A stretch of DNA of 64,000 bases from Streptomyces sp. 1-11. GTDB taxonomy: Bacteria; Actinomycetota; Actinomycetes; Streptomycetales; Streptomycetaceae. Of this stretch, positions 2,367 to 19,214 are shown one piece after another. How positions within the stretch are numbered: the first letter of the stretch is position 1; every line of letters starts with the position of its first letter. The stretch is from assembly GCF_007176755.1 (NCBI RefSeq), contig NZ_BJTV01000014.1, forward strand, positions 62,001-126,000. Reading direction: 5' to 3'. Below the pieces are notes generated by a model that saw only the letters and a list, made by a program, of their open reading frames with translations, was not told where the DNA came from and made no database searches. The position numbers and the translations under genes are program-made.

Positions 2367-5300
2367 CTACTCTCCGCCCAGGGCCGCCTTCGCCTCGTTG
2401 CCGTCCCAGCCGGCCGGAGTGCGCCAGATGACATCGACGGTGAACACGTCGCGGATGGCTTGCGCGGACCAGGCCTCAGCCGGCGGCTCGGACAGCACGA
2501 GGTAGCGGCGGTCACCCTTGTCCGACACGGCGTGCTCGATCTCCAGGAGCCGGGCTGCTCCCGCACGCAGGTCGGCGTGGGACGACTGGCCGGCGCCGAG
2601 GACTTCGTAGTGCGCAAGCCCCTGCTCGGCCCGGCAGCTCACGTCCACGACCGCAGAACTCTCCGGCTGCAGGTCGGCGCGCAGCAGAGCCGCCATCAGT
2701 TCGAGACGCACTGCTTCATGCGTCTTGCACTTCCGGTCGGCGGCGACGGTCTCTTCCAGGTGGCGGAGCAGGTCCCCGGCCTGCTGGGGGCTCTGCGCGA
2801 CGGTGGCCATGGAACCGGGCTCCTTTTCTTCGGACTCTGCGGTCTGGGTGATGACGGTCTGGGGCTCGCCCTCGGTGACTGCCGGCAGAGCCACTTCGGC
2901 TTCCACGACGGCCACGCGTTCCTCCAGGGCCTTCCGCGCGGTCGTCAGGGCGTCGGCCCATCCGCTGCTCGCCAGCTCGGCCTGGAACAGGGTCGGGTCG
3001 AACGTCCCCGCCTTCAGGGCGTGGTTGGTGCTCACGGCGAGGTTCTGCAGGCGGCTGAGACTCGCCTTGTCGGGAGAGCCGAGAACGCGCCACACGTCCA
3101 GCCAGTCGTGCTGGTCGAGTTTCATGCAGCGCGTTGCCATGCCCTTGAGCTCCGAGACCCGGGCACGGGCGTTCTCCGGGGCCTCGGCTCGGGTCAGCTC
3201 CTCCACAACACCGAGAGCGTCTACATAGCGCTTCAGCATGGTCGGGGAGATGGGCTGGCGGCCGGAGTCATCGGCTGTGACGAAGGTGGCGTTCGCCGTC
3301 TGGCGCATCACCCAGACGTCCAGTTCGGTTCCGATGGCCGGCGCCACGGCGTCCTTGCGTACGGCCACGTAGAGCGGGCGTCCGACGGGCCCCTGAAGGG
3401 CCTCGGCCTTGTACCGGCCTCCGCTGATCGAGACCACCCGCACCCGGAGCTCCGCCCCGATATCGAGGGTGCCGGCCGCTTCTCCGGCCTCGGAGGCCGG
3501 GGTCGTGGACGGCTCGGGGTGGTCGTCGGCACCGGTCAGCACCGCTGGAAGAGGAGTGGAGTGCATGATCGTGAGGCTCTGGGTGCTTCGGGTCAGGGAG
3601 ATGTAGAGCAGGCGCAGACCGGCTGGTTCGTGGCCCGCTATGGCGGACGGTTCGACAACGAGGACGTGGTCGAATTCCAGGCCCTTGGCCTGCGAGGCCG
3701 GAAGCATGGTGATGGCCTGGCGCTCCTCGGCCGCGAGGCCGTCGGCTTCGTCCAGCCGGCGGTCGATCTCAGCGGTGGCCTCGTAGTCGTCGGGGACGAT
3801 GACCGCCACCGAACGCATGAGGTTCTGGCCGTCGGTGGTGCCGGTCAGGTGGTGGATACGGGCGATGGTCTCCGCGACGAGTGAGCCCGGTTCGGTTTCG
3901 ACCAGTCGCACGGCGTCTTCCCCGGCCGCACGGACCGCCTCCGGATACGGCAGCGTGGGTGCGACGGCGCGAGCCAGCGGCGCGGCGAATCGCATGATCT
4001 CGGCGGGGACGCGGTAGCTCGTGTTCAGTTCGGCCAGCCGGCAGTCTCCGTGGTCGGAGAGAAGTGTGCCGAGGCGGTCCCAGTCGGTGTAGGCGTGGGG
4101 GCCGGTGGCCTGAGCGAGGTCGCCGAGCACCGTCATGGAACCGCCGGCCGCGAGGCGGCGCCGCAGGGACCGGGCCTGCATCGGGGTCAGGTCCTGGGCC
4201 TCGTCGATGATGACGTGTCCGTAATGACGTGGGGTCTCACCCGTGATGAGGTACCGGAGCTCTTCGAGGCAGACGCGGTCGTCGAGCGTCCACGGCTCCT
4301 CGTCCGCCCTGGTCGCGCGCGGGCGTTGCAGGACATACTGCTCGATGTCCTCCAGGATGCCCTCGGCGCAGGCTCGCAGCAGCTGGGGCGAGTCGTAGAG
4401 GGTGCGCAGGGCCTCGGCCGGGCCGGGCGACGGCCAGACGCGTTCTATGAGGCGCTCCACGCGCCGGTTGCGCTCCAGTTCACGACGGATCGTCTGGTCG
4501 CGGCTACGCCGTGGCGCGACGGCGACGAGTTCGCGCAGCAGCAGGTCGACGACGAGTCCGCGGAACCGGTCGCGCCGTTCGCGGTAGGACCCTCCCCCCT
4601 GCCGCACCTCCTCCAGAGCGGCGAGGATCTCCGAGCGGACTACGCGCAGGGTCGTGCCGGCAGCGGTGACGACGAACGCGGGCTCGTCGCCCTCGAAGGA
4701 GGGTGGCGTGGTGAGGTCGTCGAGAGCCGCCGGGCGGTACTCCTTCTCGACACGTCGCCGCAGCAGGGCGCCCATGCGCTCGTCGGACTTCACCAGCCGG
4801 GTACGCGCACTGTCGGTGCCCCGGATGTCGCCGTCCCACAGGCGGGACAGCTGCACGGCGTTGACGTCCCGGGTGCCGAGGGTGGGCAGAACCTGGCCGA
4901 CGTATTCGAGGAACCGCTGGTGCGGGCCGATGACCAGGATGTCCCGCGCCTTGAAGTGGTCGTTGTTCACCAGCCACGTCACGCGGTGCAGACCGACCGC
5001 GGACTTACCCGTTCCCGGACCACCCTGTACGACGAGGATCTCGGAGGGCGCCTCGGTGACGAGTGCCATCTGGTCGCGCCGGATCGTCTCGACGATGTCG
5101 CGCATGCGGCCGCTTCGTGAACGCTGCAGGTCACGTAGCAGGAGGTCGTCCGGCTGCTGAGGCTTGCGCCGCTGGATGCGGGCGATGTCGCCGGGGGTGG
5201 GGCCCGGGCGGCCGGGGGTGTCCGGAGCGGACTTCTCGCCCTCACGGGCCGCCCCGCTCCGGACGGCCGGCCGGCGAACGGCCGTGTCGGTCTCCTCGGA

Positions 5301-5804
5301 CGCCTCCGCCGCGGTGCCCGGTACGGTCACCGGGCTGTCCGGAACCTGCGTCGCCGGTGCGGGAACCGCCGACGCGATGTCATCGGTGTAATCGTCGACG
5401 ACACGCTGCGAGCAGATCAACCGCCGCCGCAGCACCACTTCTCCTGGTGACTCCGGCGATGCGTCGAACCACGTCCGGGCGAGCTGGTTGGTCCACTCCA
5501 CGACCACCCGGTTGCTCTCGCTGTCCGAGACGCCTCGGCGCCCGACGTACCAGGTTTCGACCTCCTGGTGGGGAGCTCCGACGTCGACGCGGCCGATGAC
5601 CAGACTCTCGCCCCCCAATCCGCCGTAGGCGGCCGCCTGCTCCTCGGCCTTGATCCGGTTGGTGACACTGTCCTTACCGCTGGCGGACGCCTTGGCCACG
5701 AAGTCGCCGGTCATCTGCGCCAGCCGGGCCTCGTAGCATTCGTAGGCGAAATCCACCTTCTTCTGCTCAGCGGCGATGACTTCCCTGCGCGCGGGCACTC
5801 CCAT
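2367..5804 (-). CDS. HelD/HelR-like UvrD-superfamily helicase with long C-terminal extension
   Basis: A 1145-residue superfamily 1 ATPase. The N-terminus (1-130) resembles the HelD/HelR arm that begins EQKKVDFAYECYEARL. Walker A is GGPGTGKSAV with Lys near 267, the DEAQDLTPMQ Walker B lies near 530, and late UvrD motifs AKGLEFDHVLVVEP and LLYISLTRSTQ lie near 705-740. HelD proteins, usually about 700-780 residues, remove stalled RNA polymerase. This one has some 400 extra residues, ending in a region that looks like a PD-(D/E)XK fold (see findings). The ATG at 5804 follows AGGGAGGGGA and is preferred over the GTG at 5822. It is the third gene of a minus-strand operon, 69 nt after the HEPN-like gene. 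Role in RNA polymerase recycling versus phage defence is undecided. Confidence 0.85.
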   Translation of the reverse strand: MGVPARREVIAAEQKKVDFAYECYEARLAQMTGDFVAKASASGKDSVTNRIKAEEQAAAYGGLGGESLVIGRVDVGAPHQEVETWYVGRRGVSDSESNRVVVEWTNQLARTWFDASPESPGEVVLRRRLICSQRVVDDYTDDIASAVPAPATQVPDSPVTVPGTAAEASEETDTAVRRPAVRSGAAREGEKSAPDTPGRPGPTPGDIARIQRRKPQQPDDLLLRDLQRSRSGRMRDIVETIRRDQMALVTEAPSEILVVQGGPGTGKSAVGLHRVTWLVNNDHFKARDILVIGPHQRFLEYVGQVLPTLGTRDVNAVQLSRLWDGDIRGTDSARTRLVKSDERMGALLRRRVEKEYRPAALDDLTTPPSFEGDEPAFVVTAAGTTLRVVRSEILAALEEVRQGGGSYRERRDRFRGLVVDLLLRELVAVAPRRSRDQTIRRELERNRRVERLIERVWPSPGPAEALRTLYDSPQLLRACAEGILEDIEQYVLQRPRATRADEEPWTLDDRVCLEELRYLITGETPRHYGHVIIDEAQDLTPMQARSLRRRLAAGGSMTVLGDLAQATGPHAYTDWDRLGTLLSDHGDCRLAELNTSYRVPAEIMRFAAPLARAVAPTLPYPEAVRAAGEDAVRLVETEPGSLVAETIARIHHLTGTTDGQNLMRSVAVIVPDDYEATAEIDRRLDEADGLAAEERQAITMLPASQAKGLEFDHVLVVEPSAIAGHEPAGLRLLYISLTRSTQSLTIMHSTPLPAVLTGADDHPEPSTTPASEAGEAAGTLDIGAELRVRVVSISGGRYKAEALQGPVGRPLYVAVRKDAVAPAIGTELDVWVMRQTANATFVTADDSGRQPISPTMLKRYVDALGVVEELTRAEAPENARARVSELKGMATRCMKLDQHDWLDVWRVLGSPDKASLSRLQNLAVSTNHALKAGTFDPTLFQAELASSGWADALTTARKALEERVAVVEAEVALPAVTEGEPQTVITQTAESEEKEPGSMATVAQSPQQAGDLLRHLEETVAADRKCKTHEAVRLELMAALLRADLQPESSAVVDVSCRAEQGLAHYEVLGAGQSSHADLRAGAARLLEIEHAVSDKGDRRYLVLSEPPAEAWSAQAIRDVFTVDVIWRTPAGWDGNEAKAALGGE

Positions 5805-5873
5805 GTACTTCCCCTCCCTCACGGCCCTCCGGCCGCACCGGACGCATGGCGTCCGGTCCCCTTCACAGAATTA

Positions 5874-6401
5874 TCACGTCTTGTCAGTTGCCGGAGGCAC
5901 AGTCTCTGTTCTCGTCGTCACCGCATGGAGGGTGACGACGGCCTTCGCCGGCGTCTCGGCGAGCGGCGCCCGCCGTACGCCCTTCTGCTGGGGAAGAGTC
6001 AGGGTGACCCCGGGTGCAGCGAGTTCTGTGACGAGTGCTGCGACGGCCGCCTGCCAGACGCGCACCTGGGAGTGGCTCGGGCCGATCTCGTCGTGCTGGT
6101 ACTTGCAGCCCGCGCTGAGCCGGCTCCAGAAGGCGGTGACGCGGTGGGCCAGATCAAGGCCGACGTAATGGCGGAGACAGAGCAGCTTGGCCCGCATGCT
6201 GCGGACTCCGCAGAATCCGGCTTCCTTGGACAGCAGGGTCGCGTCGACGGCCGCTTCCAGGGCGATCCGCAGGGCGTAAGCGGCGCCACGGGCGCGGCCC
6301 GCCTGGGTCAGGGGACCGCCCAGGCCTTCGCTGAGAAGGGCCTCAGCGGTAGCGAGGAGCCCGGCGATCGCCGGGGCGCCGGTCTCGGGAGCGGTCGTCA
6401 C
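5874..6401 (-). CDS. Small all-helical protein, HEPN-like, in ATPase/helicase operon
   Basis: A 175-residue protein of unrecognised family. It looks all-helical: an Ala/Leu-rich N-terminus, a helix with AYALRIALEAAVDATLL, and a block CLRHYVGLDLAHRV followed by FWSRLSAGCKYQHDEIGPS. The polar Arg...His pattern, with a basic Tyr-Gln-His segment before a Pro-Ser turn, recalls HEPN-type proteins that partner ATPases or nucleotidyltransferases, but the spacing (R-X8-H) is not the classical R-X4-6-H RNase motif. The start is GTG at 6401, overlapping the upstream ATPase stop as GTGA, so translation is coupled. The family assignment is inference; the coupling is directly seen. Confidence 0.75.
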   Translation of the reverse strand: MTTAPETGAPAIAGLLATAEALLSEGLGGPLTQAGRARGAAYALRIALEAAVDATLLSKEAGFCGVRSMRAKLLCLRHYVGLDLAHRVTAFWSRLSAGCKYQHDEIGPSHSQVRVWQAAVAALVTELAAPGVTLTLPQQKGVRRAPLAETPAKAVVTLHAVTTRTETVPPATDKT

Positions 6402-8860
6402 TTGGTCACCCCCGGCTTACGGATCTTCTCCGTGAGGGCCTCGATCCTGCGGACGAAGCCGACCCGATCCGTCAGGGGGAGCCCGCTGGGATGTGCACCC
6501 CGCTGGCACTGCCGGATCAGGGCCACGCTCTCCTGGCCGTACAGGGCGCCGAGGCGCGCCCTGACCTCGTCATCGGTGACGGACGCGAGGGTGAGGCCGT
6601 CGGCGTCGTCCGAGGCGGCCTCGGGGAAGAGAGCGAGGGCCGCGAGCCCGAGGAGCCGATCGGTCCTGTCGACGGCTTCCTGGATCTCCTCGGCAGGCTC
6701 ACCGGCCCGCCGACGGCTGACCCAGGCCACTTCGACGAACGCCTGCGCCAGCGCCTCCCGGCACAGCGACGGCAGGACGTTGCGCAGCGCCGCCTCGGGG
6801 CAGTCACCCGTCTTGGCGAGCGCCATGGCGTCGGAGACGGCCTCCCGCACCGGATCCGTGTCGTCCGTGACCTTCACCCTGGACCGCTCGCCCCGCTCCA
6901 CCTTCAGCACGGTCACCGGCAGGCCCTGGCTGCGGAAGGCGTGCGGGAGGCGGGTGTCGTGGGTGAAGACGACGACCTGCCGGTCGCGGCCGAGTTCGTC
7001 GAGCACCTGGGCCAGTCCGTCGACCTTCGCCGGGTCCATGGACTGCACCGGGTCGTCGATGACGACGAAGCCGAAGGGGCTGTCGGCGGTGGCGGCGCGC
7101 GGCAGGAACAGGGAGAGGGCGAGCGAGTGCAGTTCGCCCTGGCTCATGACGCCCAGCGCCGGGGCCTTGGTGTCGTCGACGGTGACGTCCAGGATCAGCT
7201 TGCGTACCGTAGCCCGCTCGGTGCCGTGCAGGCCGACGGGCTTGAGGTCGACGCTGCTCTGCTGGCGCAGCTTCTCCCAGATCCGCTGCGTGTGCCCGGC
7301 GAAGGCGTTCAGTCTCAGGTCGCGGATCTCGGTCGTGAGGTTCTTGATCCAGGTGTGGGCGGCGTTGGCGGCCGTCTTGCGCGGCTTGGCGGCAACGACC
7401 TCGCGGTGGAGCGTCGTCCACTCGGCCAGCAGGCCGACCACCTCACGCCAGCGTTCGTCCAGCGCCGCCAGTTCCGCGCCCGCCGCCCGGGCCACGACGT
7501 CGCATGCGTCCGCCAGCGTCACCGCCGCCCGCAGCGCCCGCTCGGCGAGCTCGGCGGGTTCCGTGATCCGCCGGCACTCGCCCCACTCCCGCCACGGGCC
7601 GGTGAGCGCGGCCGGGAACTCCCGCGGCACATGCACCAGATCATGCAGTGCGCGCATCCCGTCCCGCACTCCGGCCTCCGCCTTGCGCACGGCCTCGGCC
7701 TCCTGCAGGAGGGCGGCGACCTCCGCCTCGGCGCGCCTGGACCACTCCCGGTCCAGGACCTGCTCCGTGCCGCAGACCGGGCAGGCCGTCTCGTCGGCGT
7801 GACGGTCGCTGTGCCGCAGGGCCGCCTGGAGCAGCCCTGCCCTGCTGTGGGCATCGGCGGCCGCGGACCCCTTGAGGTCCTCGGCGTCGGCCATGGCACG
7901 CCGCAGCGTGTCGACGGCGGCGCCGATCCGGTCGAGGTCGGGGCCCTGGGCGTCGGCCTCCAGCCGCGCCTCGCGCAACCGGCCTTCGTCGGCCGTGGGT
8001 ACGCCGCTGATCAGGGCGTCGAGTACGGCGTAGTCGGGGCCGCCCTTCTCGTCCATCGCCATCAGGGCCCTGAGCGCCCGGTCGTCGTGCCCGGCGTTCT
8101 CCAGGGCCGCGTGCAGGAGCGGCTTCTTCTCCTTCTCGGCCTTCTGGACGTCCTCGAGTTCCTTCTTGACGGCCGCCAGCCGCCGGGCGGCGGCGTTGAG
8201 GTGGTCGAGTCCGAGGATCGCGGCGACGTTGTCGTACATCTCGGCCGGCTTGCCGTTGATCATGTTGCCGAGGTCGGCGTACGACAGGAACGGACGGTGG
8301 GCGCGCATCGCCTGCTCCCAGCCGGACTGTTCCAGCGGTACGACGCCCTGTCCCGGCCGCTTCAGCACGGCCCGGGAGTCGGTGAAGGCGTCACCGGTCC
8401 AGGTACGGGTGAGAGTGCTCGGCGACGGATCGCCCTCTACGGCCAGCTTGGCCTCGACGGCGGTCGTCTCACCGTGGTGCAGGTTGCGCCAGCGGACCGC
8501 GTGGCTCGGGTGTCCTCCGGCGCAGTGGGCATTGGTCCCGGTGAACAGGGTCTCGATCGCCTCGGCGAAGCTCGACTTGCCGGACCCGTTGCGCCCGACG
8601 ACGAGGGTGACCCCCGGCTTCGGCCGCAGGTTCAGCCGCGCCTGGGATCCGACACCGCGGAAGCCGGTGACCGTGACCTTCCCCAGGTAGACGGGGCCGG
8701 CGGCGGTACCGGCAGGGCTCTCGGCGCCCTCGGAGCCGCCGAGCGCCTCGCGGACGAGGGCCTTCGCGGCCACGCTGAGCTTCGTGTCGGCGGCCAGCCG
8801 GGCCTCGACGAGGTCGGGCAGCGGCAGGGCGTGGGTCGGGTCCGGTTCCATCGCGTCCAT
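6398..8860 (-). CDS. Rad50/SbcC-like AAA (ABC-type) ATPase, first gene of putative defence operon
   Basis: An 820-residue ATPase of the SMC/Rad50/RecF class. Walker A is GRNGSGKSS (Lys near 95). The middle is a long helical region interrupted near 358 by CPVCG, the zinc-hook signature of Rad50. An ABC signature MSQGE lies near 571, Walker B VVIDDP near 602 and a switch histidine in VFTHD near 631. The residues after 640 are an unassigned tail. Such ATPases drive nucleases or effectors in repair and in several phage-defence systems. There is no nuclease in this chain, so effector activity may come from its coupled neighbours. The ATG at 8860 follows GGGAGA at fitting distance. Confidence 0.88.
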   Translation of the reverse strand: MDAMEPDPTHALPLPDLVEARLAADTKLSVAAKALVREALGGSEGAESPAGTAAGPVYLGKVTVTGFRGVGSQARLNLRPKPGVTLVVGRNGSGKSSFAEAIETLFTGTNAHCAGGHPSHAVRWRNLHHGETTAVEAKLAVEGDPSPSTLTRTWTGDAFTDSRAVLKRPGQGVVPLEQSGWEQAMRAHRPFLSYADLGNMINGKPAEMYDNVAAILGLDHLNAAARRLAAVKKELEDVQKAEKEKKPLLHAALENAGHDDRALRALMAMDEKGGPDYAVLDALISGVPTADEGRLREARLEADAQGPDLDRIGAAVDTLRRAMADAEDLKGSAAADAHSRAGLLQAALRHSDRHADETACPVCGTEQVLDREWSRRAEAEVAALLQEAEAVRKAEAGVRDGMRALHDLVHVPREFPAALTGPWREWGECRRITEPAELAERALRAAVTLADACDVVARAAGAELAALDERWREVVGLLAEWTTLHREVVAAKPRKTAANAAHTWIKNLTTEIRDLRLNAFAGHTQRIWEKLRQQSSVDLKPVGLHGTERATVRKLILDVTVDDTKAPALGVMSQGELHSLALSLFLPRAATADSPFGFVVIDDPVQSMDPAKVDGLAQVLDELGRDRQVVVFTHDTRLPHAFRSQGLPVTVLKVERGERSRVKVTDDTDPVREAVSDAMALAKTGDCPEAALRNVLPSLCREALAQAFVEVAWVSRRRAGEPAEEIQEAVDRTDRLLGLAALALFPEAASDDADGLTLASVTDDEVRARLGALYGQESVALIRQCQRGAHPSGLPLTDRVGFVRRIEALTEKIRKPGVTK

Positions 8861-8991
8861 GTGGTGTCTCCCGTGGTTTCCGTACTGGTGCGGAAGGGGC
8901 GAGCACCGACAGGCCGGGGGCGGTGGGGCCGCCGGTACCTGTCGACGGATGGAACCGTAGGAGCGGACTGGGCTGCTTACGTATGGAGCGG

Positions 8992-9013
8992 TCGATAACC
9001 CGTGTTAGCAGTG
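8992..9013 (-). promoter_or_regulatory. Near-palindromic site upstream of ATPase/HEPN-like/helicase operon
   Basis: Read on the minus strand the core is GCTAACACGGGTTATC, preceded by CACT. The same layout, CACTG-x-TAAC-x-CG-xx-TTATC, recurs at 19193-19214 upstream of the restriction operon (17 of 22 positions identical, aligned by eye). Each site lies about 130 nt upstream of the first start codon of its operon. It overlaps the stop codon of the anti-sigma-like gene. It could be a shared promoter or an operator; which protein reads it is unknown. Confidence 0.5.
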
Positions 9014-9541: not shown

Positions 9542-9684
9542 GCCGATCACGGTGCCGTCGGTCGCGTAGCGTGACCAGCGGTGACGCAGTGACAGAGCGC
9601 GACTGTACGCGCGGTGTCGGGGGGCGTAGGCGCTGTGCGCCGTAACGGCGTTCCTTGCGGGGGCGTTGGGTCGAGGAGGCGGTG

Positions 9685-10587
9685 ATGGCGGACATGGCGG
9701 AGCGCGAGGACGCGGGGACCGGGCCGGTCGTGAGTCTCGGGGACGGCTGGGACAACGACGACGCGGCCGGGCGGCGCCCGGAGGACGAGGCCGGGCGCGG
9801 GGTCGTGGTCGCGTTCGGGCAGACCCTGAAGACGCTACGGCTGCGGGAGGGCCTGGAGCGCGAGGAGTTCGGGAGACGGCTCGGCTACTCGGCGTCCACG
9901 GTCGCGGCGTTCGAGCAGGGGCGGAGGATCCCGTCACCCCGGACGATCGAGCGGGCCGATGAGGTGCTGGGGGCGGGCGGGTTGCTGTGCCTGTGGAAGG
10001 ACCAGGTGGAGCGGGCTCAGTATCCGGTGTTCTTCCAGGGGATGGCGGTGCTGGAGAAGGAGGCCATGGAGCTGCTTGCCTTTGACACCCTTGTGGTCAA
10101 CGGCCTGCTTCAGACTCAGGAATACATGCGGGCGCTGCTCACCATGCGACGCCCACCCCTCAAGCAGGACACCATCGAGCAACGCGTGACCGCGCGACTG
10201 GCCCGGCAGGACATTCTTGGCAGGGAGCCCGCACCGTTGCTGAGCTTCGTGATGGACGAATCGGTGCTACGGCGTCGCTACGGAGGAACGGACGTACAGC
10301 GGGGGCAATTGGAACATCTTCTCCTCATCGGGCAAGAGCGCAACGTTCAGTTGCAAGTCATGCCACTGAGTTGCGAGGAGAGCGCAGGCGTGGACGGACC
10401 ATTCACCGTCGTCATCCGCCAGGACGGCAAGCAGTTCGTGTACGCCGAAGCACAGGGATCCAGCGCACTCGAAACGGAGCCTGCACGCGCTGCTGTCGCC
10501 GCTGCGCGCTATGGGATTATCCGATCACAAGCTCTCACTCCGCGAGAGTCGATGGCGTTCGTCGAAGGGTTACTGGGATCGCTATGA
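9685..10587 (+). CDS. XRE-family regulator with DUF5753 (WhiJ-like)
   Basis: A 300-residue protein. A helix-turn-helix lies at about 45-100 (GQTLKTLRLREGLEREEF then LGYSASTVAAFEQGRRIPS). It is followed by the DUF5753 domain (about 110-295), beginning with a WKDQVE...ARYPVFFQG-type sequence and containing VVNGLLQTQEYMRALL. The ATG at 9685 follows GAGGAGG by 5 nt. The family includes WhiJ, a repressor of development that works with a DUF397 partner. The stop overlaps the DUF397 start (ATGA), so the two are co-translated. Its position between two defence operons makes it a candidate regulator of them, which is inference only. Confidence 0.9.
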   Translation: MADMAEREDAGTGPVVSLGDGWDNDDAAGRRPEDEAGRGVVVAFGQTLKTLRLREGLEREEFGRRLGYSASTVAAFEQGRRIPSPRTIERADEVLGAGGLLCLWKDQVERAQYPVFFQGMAVLEKEAMELLAFDTLVVNGLLQTQEYMRALLTMRRPPLKQDTIEQRVTARLARQDILGREPAPLLSFVMDESVLRRRYGGTDVQRGQLEHLLLIGQERNVQLQVMPLSCEESAGVDGPFTVVIRQDGKQFVYAEAQGSSALETEPARAAVAAARYGIIRSQALTPRESMAFVEGLLGSL

Positions 10588-10799
10588 ACAACGCTGAGTC
10601 CTCGACCGTCGCTACTGGTCTCCTCTGGTTCAAGAGCAGCTACAGCGGAGCCGAAGGTGGGCAGTGCGTAGAGGTCGCCGCTGCTCCGGCAGTCGTGTGC
10701 GTGCGTGACTCCAAGGCCGTTGCCGGGCCCACACTGACAATCTCGCGTGAGGCGTGGGCGGGGTTCGTCGGACTGGTCTCATCGGAGCGGTGCGTCTGA
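10584..10799 (+). CDS. DUF397 small protein
   Basis: A 71-residue DUF397 protein with the family hallmark WFKSSYSGAEGGQCVEVA near the N-terminus, VCVRDSK in the middle and an AWAGFV segment near the end. These small proteins are encoded directly after WhiJ-like XRE/DUF5753 regulators and are thought to modulate them. Translation is coupled to the regulator by an ATGA overlap. It is the normal length for the family and nothing is broken. Confidence 0.93.
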   Translation: MNNAESSTVATGLLWFKSSYSGAEGGQCVEVAAAPAVVCVRDSKAVAGPTLTISREAWAGFVGLVSSERCV

Positions 10800-10869: not shown

Positions 10870-13800
10870 TCAGTCCTCCGGCACCCCGTTCACGGACCAC
10901 TCGTTGGCGAAGTGCTCCATCTGGCGGAGGACCAGGTCGATGGCCTCTTTCTGCTGGTCCGGCGGGTACTTGTTGCGGGCCAGGAGGCGTTTGATGGTGC
11001 TGCGCAGGCGGGCGCGGACGGACTCGCGGGCGATCCAGTCGGGCTTGAGCTGACGGCGGACCTCGGTGACGAGTTCACGGGCGATGCCGGCCAGGACCTC
11101 GTCGCCCATGAGCGAGCGGGCCGTGCCGTGGTCGGCGACGGCGTCGTAGAAGGCGAGCTCACGCCAGTTCAGCGGCGGTTCGAACTTCTCGCCGCGCCGG
11201 GCATCGGCAGCGACCTCCTTGGCCATCTCCACCAGCTTCGCGATGAGTTCGGCGCTGGTGTACTGCTGGCGCATGTACCGCACCATCAGGTCCTGGAGGC
11301 GCTCGGAGAACGTGGTCTGCCGGACGATGTTGTGCCGGGTGACCTCGCGCATCTTCCGCTCGACGAGCCGCCGCAGCGCCTCGGCCGCCAGGTGCGGGGT
11401 GTCGCTGTTCTGGAGCTGGGCGACGAGGGCGTCGTTCAGGTGGGTCAGGTCGGCGGTTTCAAGGCCCGCCTCGGCGAACAGGTCCGTCACACCGCCCGTC
11501 TCCACGACCGACGAGGTGAGCTGGGCGAGGTACAGCTCGACGTCGCGGGCCACCGGGAGGCCGCGTGCCTCCCGCTCCATGGCGTCCAGCTTGGCCATGT
11601 AGGCGCGGACCTCGGCGAAGAACTGAATGTGCCGCTTCCACGCGGGCCGGCCGGCGAAGCGGTCTCCCACGTCCTTCGAGCTGCCGGCCAGGGCCCAGAA
11701 CCGCTCCAGGCGGTAGGCGTGGTCGCGGAAGCGGCGGCCCAGGGTCTGGCGCGGGTCGTCGAGCAGGTCGGGGTTGTTGCCGGTGGTGCGGGGGTCGCGC
11801 AGGTAGTTGGCCGTCTTCAGGGCCGCGTCGACGAACGCGCGGGGGCCGGGGCGGTCGAGCAGGGGCTCCCAGGCGAAGCCGCGCAGGGTGCCGGTGAGGA
11901 CGTCGTACTCGTTGCGCAGCTCGTCCAGCGCGCGCTCGACGTCCTGGCCCAGAGTGCGGTCGCGCTGGTCCGCCTCGGTGTACTCGGCGATGGCCTTCTG
12001 GAGGTTCTCCGTCAGCGGGGCGTAGCCGACGAGGAGGCCGTCCTCCTTGCCGCGAAAACGGCGGTTGACGCGGGCCAGGGCCTGCATCAGGTTGGCGCCC
12101 TTGAGCGGCCGGTCCAGGTACATGGTGTGGATCGGCGGGGCGTCGAAGCCGGTCAGCAGCATGTTGTTGACGATGAGCAGTTCCAGCTCGTCGTCGGGGT
12201 CCTTGGCCCGGTTGATGACCGACTTGCGGCGGCTGTCGGTCAGGGCGTGAGCGAGCAGCGCGTCGCTGTCCTTGCGGGTGTTCGAAGAGAAGACGATCTT
12301 CATCGTTCCCTTGTCGAACTCGTCGCTGTGCCACTCGGGCCGCAGCTCGCGCAGGGCGTCGTAGACGCGTACGCAGATCTCGCGGGTAGCGCACACCACC
12401 ATGGCCTTGCCGGGCGCCCCGCCCGACTCGGAGGCGCCGACGAACGGCTGCATGCGCTCCCGGCGGGCCTCCCAGTGCTCCACCAGGTCGGCGGCGAGAT
12501 CCCTTATCCGGGCCGGCGCGCCGTACATCGCGTTCATCGTCGCCACGGCCTGCTCGACGCGGCGGCGCTCGGTGTCGTCGAGGCCGTCGGTGATGCGGTC
12601 GGCCTCTTCGTCGATGGTGTTCGGGTCGACGTCGCGGTCCAGGACGAGCTGGATCACGCGGCTCTCGTGGTAGACCTTCACGGTCGCGCCGTCGTCGGCG
12701 GCCCGCTTGAGGTCGTACACGTCGATGTAGTCGCCGAACACCTCGCGGGTGTTGCGGTCGGCCTCGGAGATCGGCGTGCCGGTGAACGCGAGCAGGGTGG
12801 CGTGCGGGAGCGCGTCGCGCAGGTGGCGGGCGAGGCCGTTGAGGTCGTCGTAATGACTGCGGTGGCCCTCGTCGACGACCACGACGATGTTCCGGCGGTC
12901 GGAGAGCATCGGGTGGTCGGTGCCCGACTCCCGCTCCTCCTTGGTCTTGCCGAACTTCTGGAGCGTGGTGAAGAGGATCCCTCCCGTCCTCTTCGCCGCG
13001 AGCTCCTCTCGGAGTTCGGCGCGGGTGACGACCTGCTTGGGCGTCTCCGGGAGGATCTCGCTCTCCTGGAAGGTCGAGTAGAGCTGGTCGTCGAGGTCCG
13101 TGCGGTCGGTGACGACCACCACGGTGGGGTTCAGCAGGGCCGGATCCCGCATCACCAGGGTGGTGGTGAGGACCATTTCCTCCGACTTGCCGGAACCCTG
13201 GGTGTGCCAGACGACGCCGGCCTTGCCGTCACTGGCGGCGGCCGTACGGACAGCCTCGGCGGCGCGGGTCACCGCATGGTACTGGTGCGGTTTCGCGATC
13301 CGCTTCATCCGCTTCGACGGGACGAAGTTGACGAACGACTGGGCCAGTTCGAGGAAGCGGGGCTGGTTGAACAGGCCGTGGATCGCCAGGTTCTGTCCCG
13401 ACTCCGCGAACCCGTCCGCGGTCAGCGGGTCGACGCGGGCGCCGAACTCGTCCGTGTTCCAGGGGGCGAAGTGCTCGTACGGGGTGAACGGCGTGCCGTA
13501 CTTCGCGGTGATGCCGTCGGAGAGCAGGACGATCGCGTTGTGGCGGAAGGCGGTCGGGAACTCCTCGACGTACCGCGCCACCTGGGCGTGGGCCGTCTGG
13601 AGCGTCGCGTCCTCGTCGCCGGCGCGCTTCAGCTCCACGACGGCGAGGGGCAGGCCGTTGACGTACAGGACGACGTCGAAGCGGCGGTTTCTGTCGCCGT
13701 CGATCACCGTGACCTGGTTCAGGGCGCGGTAGGTGTTCGCGTCCGGATCGGCCAGGTCGACAAGGCGGATCGTGGGGTTGTGCTCGGCGCCGAAGGAGTC

Positions 13801-14148
13801 GGTGTAGGTGACCGAGCGTATGCCAGAGGTGAGGTGGCGGTGGGCGGCCCGGTTCTCCTCGTAGGTGTCTTGAGAGCCAGGGGTGGCGGCGGTCGTCAAG
13901 GCTTCGTGCACGGCGTCCGGGGGCAGCTCTGGGTTCAGACGCTCGATCGCCTCCCGAAGGTCCGGGTAGAGGATCAGGTCGTCCCAGGACTTCCGGTGCC
14001 CGGAGCCGGGCGCGAACTCGTTACCGGAGGCCGGCAGCCAGTCCAACTCCGCTAGCTCGTCGAGAGCGAGCAGCTCCCAGTCTGCTTCGGTGGGGCGGCG
14101 GTGGGTTCTGTCATCGGGATCGTCTCCGTCGTGGTGCGTCACCGTCAT
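10870..14148 (-). CDS. hsdR: Type I restriction enzyme, R (endonuclease/translocase) subunit
   Basis: A 1092-residue HsdR. The N-terminal PD-(D/E)XK nuclease shows RFDVVLYVNGLPLAVVELKRA-like residues (D...ELK) near 170-190. Walker A is HTQGSGKSEEM (Lys near 321). A DEAD-like VVVDEGHRSHY and late motifs such as GFDAPPIHTMYLDRPL and QALARVNRRFRGK complete the superfamily 2 translocase. The C-terminus is the helical HsdS/M-binding part. HsdR pulls DNA past the bound HsdM/HsdS complex and cuts at a distance. The ATG at 14148 overlaps the hsdS stop (ATGA). It is the last gene of the operon and intact. Confidence 0.96.
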   Translation of the reverse strand: MTVTHHDGDDPDDRTHRRPTEADWELLALDELAELDWLPASGNEFAPGSGHRKSWDDLILYPDLREAIERLNPELPPDAVHEALTTAATPGSQDTYEENRAAHRHLTSGIRSVTYTDSFGAEHNPTIRLVDLADPDANTYRALNQVTVIDGDRNRRFDVVLYVNGLPLAVVELKRAGDEDATLQTAHAQVARYVEEFPTAFRHNAIVLLSDGITAKYGTPFTPYEHFAPWNTDEFGARVDPLTADGFAESGQNLAIHGLFNQPRFLELAQSFVNFVPSKRMKRIAKPHQYHAVTRAAEAVRTAAASDGKAGVVWHTQGSGKSEEMVLTTTLVMRDPALLNPTVVVVTDRTDLDDQLYSTFQESEILPETPKQVVTRAELREELAAKRTGGILFTTLQKFGKTKEERESGTDHPMLSDRRNIVVVVDEGHRSHYDDLNGLARHLRDALPHATLLAFTGTPISEADRNTREVFGDYIDVYDLKRAADDGATVKVYHESRVIQLVLDRDVDPNTIDEEADRITDGLDDTERRRVEQAVATMNAMYGAPARIRDLAADLVEHWEARRERMQPFVGASESGGAPGKAMVVCATREICVRVYDALRELRPEWHSDEFDKGTMKIVFSSNTRKDSDALLAHALTDSRRKSVINRAKDPDDELELLIVNNMLLTGFDAPPIHTMYLDRPLKGANLMQALARVNRRFRGKEDGLLVGYAPLTENLQKAIAEYTEADQRDRTLGQDVERALDELRNEYDVLTGTLRGFAWEPLLDRPGPRAFVDAALKTANYLRDPRTTGNNPDLLDDPRQTLGRRFRDHAYRLERFWALAGSSKDVGDRFAGRPAWKRHIQFFAEVRAYMAKLDAMEREARGLPVARDVELYLAQLTSSVVETGGVTDLFAEAGLETADLTHLNDALVAQLQNSDTPHLAAEALRRLVERKMREVTRHNIVRQTTFSERLQDLMVRYMRQQYTSAELIAKLVEMAKEVAADARRGEKFEPPLNWRELAFYDAVADHGTARSLMGDEVLAGIARELVTEVRRQLKPDWIARESVRARLRSTIKRLLARNKYPPDQQKEAIDLVLRQMEHFANEWSVNGVPED

Positions 14149-15276
14149 GTGGCGTCCTCAACAATCTTCTCGGCGTCCTTGACGCGGAGGCGGCCGGACA
14201 TGAGTTGGGGGAGGAGGGTGTCGCGGAGAGTGGCGAGAGTGCGGCTCTCAACTTCGGTAGCGGTAGCACGCTTGAAGAGCGGTCGCACCGTATCAGCAAG
14301 CGCCAGGCGGACATCTACCTCTGGAACGTTAATTTCACACTGCAGCGCCGTTTCTCTATTAAGGCCAGGCACAGCAGAATCACCCACAAGCCTTGGGAGA
14401 CCAGCATTCTCAAGGATCAAGAAAGCTACTTCCGGCGACATTTCTGCATGCTTCAGCGACGCATAGAAGGCAGTATCGATGATCCAACAAGATTTTTCCG
14501 ACCATGATACCCATCCGGCATTTGCACCCTTGCGTCCAACGATCACCGTCGATCCGGACGAAAGGCTTGTATCATGCCAACCAACCTGGCCAGTACATCC
14601 ATAGACAGGAACATCGCCGTTGCGCCGATCAGGCTCACGCAGCGCCTTTCCGTACTTGAACTCAAAAAGGTCCCCTACGTGGATATTTTCAGTTCCTGAG
14701 GCAATCGCCTGCCGATAGTAAGCACGGGAGAGTTCGGAAGATATGGCCGCGATTCGCTCATTGACAGAGATCTTGTCATCCAGCGCCCCGAGCAGTGCCG
14801 ATATGGCTCGCTGATCCTCCCTCGATGGGCAGACGAAGCTAAACTCCTTGATCTGATCCGAGCTGATATGTGGAACTGCGGTTCCTGTCTGCACCCCCTG
14901 TACATAGTTACTGAACGGCTTACCGCTGATCACGTATGCGAGGAATCGCTGCTCCAGTGGTTCCCTCGCTCGAAGTCGCGCTACTCGCTGCACAAGTAGG
15001 CACGGAAGGTCGGTTTCGCGCACCTCTGCCCACTTCAACCCGGAGGAGATCCATGGGCGATCCATGGCGAGGATTGTGTCGCCATCATGCAGGGCGTAAT
15101 GCTCGAAGTCTGCAATGTTTTCCTTCGGCCAGTGCTTGGCGCTATCCCAGCGAAGAGTCCCGTGCCCGATGTTGTCGCCCCGCAAGAGTCTCACCCCTTG
15201 TGACGCTCCAACGAACTCAGCGCTCTTGAAGGGAAAACCCGTAACAAGTTCGACAACATCCCCCAATCGCGTCAGC

Positions 15277-15284
<8 letters not shown>
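14145..15284 (-). CDS. hsdS: Type I restriction-modification specificity subunit
   Basis: A 379-residue HsdS with two target-recognition domains. The first (1-150) starts LGDVVELVTGFPFKS. It is followed by a helical spacer with REDQRAISALLGALDDKI. The second (about 200-330) contains VPVYGCTGQVGWHD and ends with the spacer-like ALADTVRPLFKRA and LLPQLMSGRLRV. The pair sets the bipartite DNA target. Start is GTG at 15284, overlapping the hsdM stop by 8 nt. Base composition is clearly lower in G+C than the neighbours, with AT-rich runs at 14270-14580 and 14650-14900, as expected for recognition domains exchanged by recombination. Confidence 0.95.
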
Positions 15285-16896
<1,612 letters not shown>

Positions 16897-16913: not shown

Positions 16914-19064
16914 TCAGTGGACGTCGGTGTTCGGGAGGTGCTGGATGGTGAGCGTGCCGTCGGCCATGCCGGCCGCCATCACGCGGGCGAGGTCGTCCAG
17001 CGCGGCGGTCTGCTCGCGCAGCAGGGCCGCCCGGAACTCGATCTCGGCGAGGACGGCCTCGTAGCGGTCGGCCTCGGCACGGCTCAGGTCGGGGACGACG
17101 AGGTCCTCGATGCTGCGGGAGGCGCGCACCGCTCCGCCGGCGCGGGCGTGCTCGGCCGCCGCCGCGCGCAGCAGCGCGGCCAGCACCCGGGGCCGCAGCG
17201 GCGGGTCGGCATCGGGGTGGACGCGCAGGATCCGGGCCGGGGCGGCGACCAGGGAGAGGCCCTCCGTGTCGACGTGGACGCCGAAGCGCGGGTGAGCGGT
17301 GACCACGAGGTCGCCCGGCTCGGTGAACTGGGCGTGCTCGTAAGCGGTGAGCAGTAAACCGCGATCGATGCGGCGGCCGCCGATGCGGGCCGTGCCGAGG
17401 ACCTCCTCCGGGGTGAGGACCGTGTAGTGGCCCTCGGAAGTGAGGTGTGCGGGGTCGAAGCGGTGGCCGGGGCGGCGGCGCAGTCGGCGGGTGCGCAGGA
17501 GCCGGTCGACGGTGGTGCGGCGTACCGGCTGGTCCTCTGGGCGCAGCTCCGCCTGGGCGTCCAGCCGGAGTTCGCGGGTGCGGCCGCGCTCCTGAAGGTC
17601 GCTCAGGTGGCCCTGCAGATCGGCGATGATCGCCGGGCGTTCGACGACGGTGCGGGTGTGGCGGGAGGCGAGCGTGCGGTGCTGCGGAGTGAGAGCGGCG
17701 CCGGGGGCGTCGTCGAGGTCGGTGCCGCGGACGATGGCGGCTTGGCGCGGTTCGTGACGCGGGTCGGGCGTCCAGCCGGAGGCGCGCCAGATGGCGATGT
17801 CCTCGGCGAGGGTGTCGAGGACGGGTTCGCTGAGGGGCTGGGAGGAGTAGTCGGCGAGGAGGACGAGGCCGGTGCGCTGCTCCTCCCGCACTCGAGCGAG
17901 GACCCAGATGGCCGTGCGGTAGCCGGGGCGGTAGGCGTAGGCGCCGTCGGGCAGGCTGATCGCGGCCTTCAGCAGGCCGGGCTTCAGGAAGGAGCGGCGC
18001 AGCCGGTCGGCGTCGCCGTGCCGGGCGAGCGGGCCGGTGAGGACGTCGGCGGGGCCGAGGACGACGGCGGTGGAGCCGGTGTCGAGGTAGTCGGTGAGGG
18101 CAGCGACCTGGTCCAGGACGGCCTTGGGGTCGCGGGTCTCGGCGGCCTCGTAGGGCAGGGCGCAGACGAGGAGGTTCGGGTAGCCCCACTCGTCGGCGGT
18201 CAGTTCCTCGCCGTCGGCGACGTCCAGTCGGAACTCGTACACCCCGCGTACCAGCATCCGCCGGCGCACGAGCCGCACACGGGCCGGGTCGGGGTCGGCG
18301 GCGAGGTGGATGTGGCCCGAGTCCTCGGCCGCGCGGTCGTGGAGGGCGGCCAGGAGGTCGCCGGTGCGGGCGTGCGGGACGGCGACGACCGCGCCCTCGT
18401 CGAGGGTGTCGACGCCGGAGAGGGCGGCGAGGGCGCGGACCACGGCCGGGACGGGCTCGTCGGCGGCCAGGTCGCGGGAGCCGAGGCGGTGGCGGGCCTG
18501 GAGGATCCAGTCGAAGGCCTCGGCGGGGTTGTAGGCGGCGTCGATCAGCTCGTCGGCCAGGTGGGCGAGGGCCGGGCCTGTGCGGTCCGGGTCGGGAAGG
18601 GCTCGCAGCTCGGAGACGAGGAAGCGGTCGTCCGGGTCGAGTTCGGCGGCCCGCTCCAGGGTGGTGTCCCAGGGGCGGCCGTCGGCGGCGGGGGCGTCGA
18701 GCTGCTGATGGAGGCAGACCAGGGCGGTCAGGGCGCCGATCAGGACGGGCGCCGGCAGGGACGGGGTGCGCCAGGCGGCCAGGGTGTACAGGGCCAGCTC
18801 GGCGCGGAGCCGACGGGGGTCGGTGTTGCCGCGGCGGGTCGAGGCGAGCCAGTCGACGACCGCACGGGCGTCGAACAGGGGACGCCCGTCCTCCTGCGTG
18901 ACCGGGGCGGGAAAGTCGGCGTGGCGGCGGGCCCAGGTGGTGGGCACCGGGCGCTTGACCTGCGCGAGTGCGGCGATCTCGGCATACGTCATCCGCCAGG
19001 CAGGGGTTTCGGGCAGGATGGGCGACGTCTGTGAGGGTGCCGGAACGGCGGTGTACGTCGTCAA
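16914..19064 (-). CDS. Degenerate N6-methyltransferase-like protein heading the restriction operon
   Basis: A protein of about 716 residues. An N-terminal winged-helix-like region contains MTYAEIAALAQVKRPVPTTW. A methyltransferase-like middle part resembles HsdM in layout, but the S-adenosylmethionine loop reads VPHARTGDLL and the catalytic NPPF/Y position reads CALPYE, so key residues are missing. The C-terminus (about 520-716) resembles an HsdS half: a recognition-like part, then a helical stretch ending ALDDLARVMAAGMADG. The TTG at 19064 follows GAGAGGGGGG; the ATG at 18992 is an alternative. It lies 17 nt before hsdM. Probably a non-catalytic DNA-binding or accessory subunit; function unproven. 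Confidence 0.8.
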   Translation of the reverse strand: MTTYTAVPAPSQTSPILPETPAWRMTYAEIAALAQVKRPVPTTWARRHADFPAPVTQEDGRPLFDARAVVDWLASTRRGNTDPRRLRAELALYTLAAWRTPSLPAPVLIGALTALVCLHQQLDAPAADGRPWDTTLERAAELDPDDRFLVSELRALPDPDRTGPALAHLADELIDAAYNPAEAFDWILQARHRLGSRDLAADEPVPAVVRALAALSGVDTLDEGAVVAVPHARTGDLLAALHDRAAEDSGHIHLAADPDPARVRLVRRRMLVRGVYEFRLDVADGEELTADEWGYPNLLVCALPYEAAETRDPKAVLDQVAALTDYLDTGSTAVVLGPADVLTGPLARHGDADRLRRSFLKPGLLKAAISLPDGAYAYRPGYRTAIWVLARVREEQRTGLVLLADYSSQPLSEPVLDTLAEDIAIWRASGWTPDPRHEPRQAAIVRGTDLDDAPGAALTPQHRTLASRHTRTVVERPAIIADLQGHLSDLQERGRTRELRLDAQAELRPEDQPVRRTTVDRLLRTRRLRRRPGHRFDPAHLTSEGHYTVLTPEEVLGTARIGGRRIDRGLLLTAYEHAQFTEPGDLVVTAHPRFGVHVDTEGLSLVAAPARILRVHPDADPPLRPRVLAALLRAAAAEHARAGGAVRASRSIEDLVVPDLSRAEADRYEAVLAEIEFRAALLREQTAALDDLARVMAAGMADGTLTIQHLPNTDVH

Positions 19065-19192
19065 CGGACGTGCCCCCCTCTCCCCTGGCGTCCTGAGGCC
19101 GGCGTTCACCGCCTCCGCGCTTCGCGGCCCGCCCCTCGGTGGGGCAGGCGTCAGCAATCTACAGCTGATCAAGGAAGCGTGGCACAGCCCGC

Positions 19193-19214
19193 TTGATAAT
19201 ACGGGTTATCAGTG
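19193..19214 (-). promoter_or_regulatory. Near-palindromic site upstream of the restriction operon
   Basis: Minus-strand core GATAACCCGTATTATC, flanked by CACT and AA, with GATAA/TTATC half sites. It is the counterpart of the site at 8992-9013 and lies 128 nt upstream of the TTG start at 19064. It lies between the restriction operon and the divergent exported-protein gene, so it could act on either. Confidence 0.5.

Follow-up and report, generated by a model that had tools for sequence, protein, structure and literature searches.

The 64,000-nucleotide stretch of Streptomyces sp. 1-11 analysed here, which we call the window, carries a type I restriction-modification operon headed by an additional gene, X, whose product joins a winged-helix-turn-helix (HTH)-like domain to a degenerate HsdM-like methyltransferase. 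We believe that X is probably a transcription regulator descended from an old type I-like methyltransferase, whose HTH would bind a palindrome and switch two operons: its own, and a second one headed by an SMC/RecF-like ATPase gene. The original prediction took X for a fourth subunit that recognises DNA or regulates the restriction complex. Its DNA-binding or regulatory side agrees with our results and target recognition does not; the evidence points to transcription control of two operons, not to a subunit of the complex.

The restriction genes behind X had been called intact, and they are three open full-length frames with the expected domains. HsdM carries DPACGxG and NPPF and matches N6_Mtase (E 6.5e-111) and HsdM_N in a Pfam search, HsdS matches Methylase_S in two stretches, and HsdR has HSDR_N, SWI2/SNF2 and T1RH-like_C domains. 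The hsdM/hsdS and hsdS/hsdR frames overlap by a few bases; X comes first, 17 nt ahead of hsdM, and its TTG start codon is ATG at the same codon in close homologues. The motifs originally described in X, VPHARTGDLL for motif I and CALPYE for motif IV, are present as well, in the places where functional HsdM proteins have DPxxGxG and (N/D)PP(F/Y).

The argument for a regulator begins at the promoter of X. In an alignment of the upstream regions of 19 close loci, a palindrome like CTGATAACC-NN-GGTTATCAG stands in a fixed place before a conserved hexamer; its consensus is 18 bp long, TGATAAC-N4-GTTATCA. Of the 44 loci of the main group of X, to which the window belongs, 43 have it no more than 600 bp ahead of the HTH at up to three mismatches (42 at up to two), while shuffled upstream regions gave 0 of 1240 at up to two mismatches and seven at three. 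Main-group X promoters show a TANNNT hexamer 32-33 nt beyond the palindrome in 41 of 43 cases, and ATPase promoters do so in 22 of 23. If TANNNT is the -10 element, the palindrome would be centred near -53, outside the core promoter. The best -35 match in X promoters is no better than in shuffled sequence (2.61 vs 2.56 of 6).

The window has two matches to the palindrome at up to three mismatches against 0.08 expected, and its whole genome has four places at up to two mismatches, two of them in this locus. Exact copies occur in 5 of 121 genomes of the genus, all X-bearing. Across 20 of the 22 main-group X genomes (the window's own was counted separately and G386 left out), all 27 sites with at most one mismatch lie at an X or ATPase promoter, and a reversed-pattern control gave one. 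Sixteen canonical HTH-methyltransferase loci share no upstream palindrome, counting perfect 7-bp arms only, and a text search of the literature for the motif returned unrelated matches only. Judged by sequence, the two candidate operators of the window are inverted repeats at promoters, and X has one at its own.

A second copy precedes the SMC-like ATPase gene in the window and 19 other loci; these second sites were chosen by eye and other weak ones exist (e.g. L102 2196 and L109 6481). The same ATPase is present without X in other genomes. Its promoter carries the palindrome in 25 of 26 X-bearing rows versus 1 of 20 X-less rows. The latter, picked by hand, are 18 of the 29 X-less ATPase-bearing genomes together with G157, which has an X remnant only, and the second ATPase of X-bearing G071; a row under 250 aa (L039, site present) is excluded. 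When losses of X and of the palindrome are placed on a tree, about five of six independent pairs coincide, none run in reverse and one shows no difference (p 0.0625). A search of 24 of the 29 X-less ATPase-bearing genomes (all except G036, G220, G250, G272 and G291) found no site at up to one mismatch, X-less meaning no X match at E<=1e-25 and no hsdM place. G220, outside that search, does have such a site and is the single X-less row with the palindrome at its ATPase promoter.

What can be read in the sequences is that X is conserved and has lost its motifs, and that the palindrome keeps a set spacing, is restricted to two promoters and depends on X; from this we infer binding by X, a direction of control, a dimer and a ligand. 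The N-terminal HTH would bind the 18-bp palindrome symmetrically, probably as a dimer. At both operons this site lies about 53 bp ahead of the start point deduced from the -10-like hexamer, and X would switch X-hsdM-hsdS-hsdR and the ATPase-small protein-helicase operon together. Activation by X seems likelier than repression, given the fixed spacing and the lack of any -35 element that can be recognised. The methyltransferase part, probably no longer catalytic, may be a dimerisation scaffold or a sensor.

Repression is the alternative that survives best, although we consider it improbable: X would act at the same palindromes as an autoregulator like M.SsoII. According to the cited parts of the sources, the M.SsoII, Ecl18kI and EcoRII methyltransferases repress (PMC3978073, PMC12707154), and RptR and the C protein of Mycoplasma gallisepticum repress type I operons (PMC12255303, PMC12707154). 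A repressor fits less well with a palindrome that nearly every promoter has ahead of its inferred -35 region, and with the lack of a recognisable -35. About as doubtful, to our minds, is an elaboration of the regulator in which the decayed methyltransferase and a tail resembling a target recognition domain sense methylation state, S-adenosylmethionine or invader DNA and gate the HTH at the palindromes, turning on both operons together. A partial precedent, from the part of PMC12707154 cited, is an inactive M.EcoRII mutant that represses only with methylated substrate sites.

What kind of protein is X? It gave nothing above cut-off in Pfam (a single chance-level row at E 0.07, and no N6_Mtase match) and no match in NCBIfam. 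It is HsdM-like all the same: a profile of X relatives matches the solved HsdM structures 3lkd (E 5e-4) and 7bst, the M subunit of EcoR124I (E 1e-3), and Foldseek ranks type I M chains first for an AlphaFold model of full-length X built from 15 sequences, a low-confidence model with a mean predicted local distance difference test (pLDDT) score of 52 that is usable only at about residues 290-460. The HTH matches the PADLOC type I methyltransferase model PDLC03037 (E 1.3e-8); modelled alone it is helix-helix-strand-strand-helix (pLDDT 75), and MerR-type regulators occur among its non-significant fold matches. The HsdS-like tail of the original prediction fares less well. Compared with HsdS by profile, it has an E-value of 0.0035 but a probability of 9%; a type I specificity model matches the region corresponding to the X tail (E 3.2e-5) in L096, a relative that keeps PPF at motif IV.

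The degenerate motifs might have been a slip in alignment. Motif IV is xLPY, xLPF or once MPF in all 44 main-group rows, window included, versus xPPF or xPPY in the co-aligned HTH-methyltransferases (x being N, H, D, A or S, with one DPPA), so the loss is real. Motif I is DPxxGxG in most canonical HTH-methyltransferases and mostly ARxGD-like in the 44. A related group, X-int, has ten proteins with AGxGD/E at motif I and DPPY, DPPF or SPPY at motif IV, and another, L159, with AGAGA and YPPF. Seven more are further degenerate: in L154 and L155 motif IV is gone and a trace of motif I is left, and in L156, L157, L158, L161 and L162 both are gone. The HTH is kept in all X groups, including proteins without methyltransferase motifs, and the X-M order holds in all these except L155 and L153. 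These sequences suggest that the catalytic motif was lost in steps across the family and that the methyltransferase part of X no longer catalyses. X is nevertheless under purifying selection, with nonsynonymous divergence (dN) about a fifth to under half of synonymous divergence (dS) in eight comparisons; in seven of the eight, identity and dN both single out the HTH as its most conserved part. The short loci L118-L147, mostly copies of wider loci, were excluded from the motif alignment, the HsdM tree and the palindrome counts; some loci are one genome twice (e.g. L036 and G303).

The original prediction would have fallen if X were not conserved with hsdM, hsdS and hsdR. All 14 named Streptomyces loci have X-M-S-R, as do divergent ones. 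Relatives of X at E<=1e-25 occur in 25 of 392 genomes of the genus, at 26 places including the window. Of 36 hsdM places in the 392 genomes (E<=1e-120), 33 have X directly upstream, 23 of the main group and 10 X-int. The three others are L108 and L117, with no matched hsdR, and L109, where M-S-R follows a gene that looks GntR-like by eye; the X place of G157 is a truncated remnant without M. A class-wide sample of 345 genomes gave 26 matching places, of which 20 were retrieved: 14 have X. Twelve of these are complete X-M-S-R, L153 lies at a contig end and L155 is X alone. L201 is a further X-M-S-R, including a gap of about 0.75 kb. The arrangement is found again in other families of the class, and the suggestion of a variant restriction class in actinobacteria is borne out as far as a conserved four-gene type I arrangement goes. 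Four viral-contig loci match X at the N-terminus only.

Identity across the 14 named loci is 82-94% for M, 80-95% for R, 55-88% for X and about 25-36% over larger stretches for S. X does not follow target specificity, because in ten named loci its identity is 84-88%, against about 25-32% for hsdS over the larger matched stretches; the last ~45 residues of hsdS are 78% conserved in one of the ten, L038.

X does follow hsdR. The HsdM tree, with L032, L036, L039, L041, L076 and L110 scored as X-bearing, has a single clade of 73 rows (support 100). X and R are both present in 60 of these and both absent in 12; L116, which is truncated, has X but no R, and no row has R but no X. Independent pairs run about six to nothing (median p 0.031, range 0.031-0.063). 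Five rows without X and R are hsdM-hsdS pairs (L200, L210, L211, L213 and L215) whose neighbours we take to be the mycobacterial thyX-dapA / thyA-dfrA region, and L212 groups with them. These Mycobacterium-like orphan pairs are nested among X-M-S-R systems. Upstream of hsdM in L200, a relic of the X tail is kept at 8578-8922.

Might X be a structural fourth type I subunit, a pseudo-HsdM pairing with HsdM or HsdR? Active/inactive methyltransferase pairs exist elsewhere, and the strict X-M-S-R order, the absence of X where R is gone, the HsdM-like middle of X by profile and low-confidence model, and a 17-nt spacing that would permit coupled translation all suit such a subunit. It leaves unexplained the palindrome at the ATPase promoter and its absence without X, and it sits badly with degenerate X proteins that retain little of the methyltransferase motifs yet hold their position in the operon, and with HsdM-HsdS relatives that have no X. 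The cited part of PMC7591249 describes M. tuberculosis HsdM (Rv2756c) as an orphan methyltransferase that methylates without HsdR; this too would count against a subunit if, as we infer, Rv2756c belongs with the orphan-pair rows of the clade. We judge a subunit in place of a regulator very unlikely; X might conceivably be a subunit in addition to regulating.

The regulator is better matched by how operators vary. X-int loci have the palindrome TGAGAA..TTCTCA (exact in 9 of 11, at up to one mismatch in 10) about 0.9-1.1 kb before the HTH, with the -10 spacing found in five of the seven examined. In six of them a gene lies between palindrome and X, and both that were tested (L115 and L089) match Abi_2. 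The seven degenerate X loci have the TGATAAC or TGATAAG form at up to three mismatches, two at three only, and a TGATAAG/A-like operator is seen in four (L155, L156, L158 and L161). The HTH helix residue after a conserved V is K, R or Q with TGATAA, G with TGAGAA, and S with TGTTAA (clear in L070, weak in L157 and L162). Operator type correlates with X clade and partly with helix residues, and X is the sole gene with an HTH-like domain seen at all these operons.

That some other host regulator binds the palindrome and X is a passenger we regard as improbable in the extreme, even if binding by X is itself predicted from sequence: the palindrome at up to one mismatch is missing from all 24 searched X-less ATPase-bearing genomes, is confined to two promoters in X-bearing ones, and changes type with X clade. 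Weakest of all is the idea that the palindromes bound a recombining mobile cassette and that X is excisionase-like, which draws on G220 (L259, ~3650-3740), where the equivalent of window position 8963 joins that of 19238 with one palindrome left and the X-M-S-R block gone, and which founders on L040, L041 and L104, whose two palindromes do not enclose X-M-S-R, on L103 (G071), where X and the ATPase operon diverge from a single palindrome, and on the fixed distance to the -10, a promoter feature. The G220 gap is perhaps a deletion by recombination between the two palindromes.

Several observations weigh against the regulator as we propose it. A palindrome centred near -53 is not where a classical activator would sit. 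L072 has no palindrome and L073 a weak one; L152 has no ATPase-promoter site; G188 and G281 have no site at up to one mismatch, and their ATPase-promoter sites have two or three. The X and ATPase promoters are not independent evidence in L103, nor apparently in L151, L156 and L158, because one palindrome is shared. Each sign test draws on about six contrasts. The HTH has no Pfam match, and its model no significant match in the PDB (best Foldseek E 2.1, VIA Z <=2.8). L159, X-int by clade, carries a TGATAA-type site, and the link between operator and helix residue is confounded by ancestry. Type I relatives outside the HsdM clade have M-S-R without X (L109, L203, L205, L208, L209 and L217). The HTH is a candidate for binding the palindrome on the strength of a correlation.

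Features of the window are collected below.

Table 1. Coordinates in the window of X, its operon and the ATPase operon; domains of X are given in residues
Feature	Position	Strand	Description
X	16914..19064	-	716 aa, TTG start
X winged-HTH-like domain	~residues 25-75		N-terminal
X degenerate HsdM-like methyltransferase region	~residues 206-460		
X possible HsdS-like tail	~residues 500-716		long helix at end
hsdM	15277..16896	-	motifs DPACGSG and NPPF intact
hsdS	14145..15284	-	two specificity-domain stretches; strongly variable among loci
hsdR	10870..14148	-	open full-length frame
Operator 1 (candidate)	19194..19211	-	TGATAACCCGTATTATCA read towards X; 1 mismatch to consensus
-10-like hexamer TAGATT	19156..19161	-	32 nt downstream of operator 1
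Operator 2 (candidate)	8993..9010	-	TGCTAACACGGGTTATCG, 2 mismatches; ahead of ATPase operon
-10-like hexamer TACGGT	8954..8959	-	33 nt downstream of operator 2
SMC/RecF-like ATPase	6398..8860	-	820 aa, first gene
175-aa protein	5874..6401	-	no family match
HelD/HelR-like and UvrD-like helicase	2367..5822	-	1151 aa

The helicase matches NCBIfam models at E 1e-70 yet under their curated cut-offs, and the operon at 2367-8860 is perhaps a defence or RNA-polymerase-related system. MADS was considered and rejected: P0005 matches mad3 (E 6.8e-20) and L096 and L111 match mad2 in PADLOC, and the NCBIfam MADS models stay far under cut-offs. Between hsdR and operator 2, on the forward strand at 9655-10799, the window has what look by eye like an XRE-like regulator and a small DUF397-like gene; a similar gene is seen again in several close loci.

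Other loci offered side observations. The Abi_2-like gene lies directly upstream of X-int at 11887-12687 in L115 and 4276-4953 in L089, and genes alike by eye stand in L088, L110, L112 and L114; these look like five-gene operons with the TGAGAA palindrome heading all. An extra gene at 5058-6128 of L161, between hsdS and hsdR of X-M-S-R, presumably resembles DUF1016-type nucleases. In L093, L094, L095 and L099 a second HsdM-like gene comes after a canonical HTH-methyltransferase, with a weak HsdR-like helicase match farther along; this is a different multi-gene system. L108 and L117 have vWA-like genes near; these two and L202 are HsdM relatives without matched HsdR beside vWA-like or trypsin-like genes (all by eye).

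How new is such a regulator? C proteins are small, about 80-100 aa. In the parts of the literature cited here, methyltransferase-regulators and C proteins are known from type II systems, and RptR and the Mycoplasma C protein from type I (PMC3978073, PMC12255303, PMC12707154). As described in the cited sections of PMC3978073 and PMC12707154, M.SsoII, M.Ecl18kI and M.EcoRII resemble X in having an N-terminal DNA-binding domain on a methyltransferase and an inverted repeat in the promoter region of their own restriction-modification genes. They are type II methyltransferases (C5-cytosine for SsoII) and repressors, whereas X descends from the HsdM (adenine) lineage, no longer has motif IV and so, judged by sequence, is no active methyltransferase, heads a type I operon and would have a second target operon. 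C proteins, in the cited part of PMC12707154, share autogenous control of restriction-modification genes, typically as activators bound upstream; they are separate regulators, unlike the methyltransferase-derived X of 716 aa. RptR, in the part of PMC12255303 cited, likewise comes first in a type I defence island and is a regulator with a conserved palindrome; it differs in being a 9 kDa repressor, far from the size of X, with 6-bp TAGCTA palindromes that overlap the -10.

PacII-type M1M2S is likewise a type I system with two methyltransferase-like proteins that differ from each other, but there M1 and M2 have NPPF and NPPY and make up the enzyme (cited part of PMC9613975), and X has neither motif. 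The actinobacterial HTH-type N-6 DNA methylases of PDLC03037 share the HTH-methyltransferase-tail layout, and L096 matches that model in three stretches (E 3.3e-121). Unlike X, most keep a DPxxGxG-like motif I and an xPPF/Y motif IV, and none in the retrieved loci has S and R of the X-operon kind behind it. Among the open-licence papers listed, mostly the best 8-20 of longer lists, none has a type I operon with an inactive methyltransferase as its first gene and regulator. A dead HsdM-lineage regulator that would head a type I operon and control a two-operon regulon is not among the matches listed, and to that extent appears new beside the known methyltransferase-regulators.

We believe this work offers a candidate regulator together with its putative operator, its promoter geometry and a proposed regulon of two operons. 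These are conserved in several families of the class, and all of them can be tested in Streptomyces. It shows how a methyltransferase may become a dedicated regulator, with the intermediates preserved. It suggests an origin for the orphan mycobacterial hsdM-hsdS pairs as remnants of X-M-S-R operons, and it points to the uncharacterised ATPase-HelD-like operon as a likely partner.
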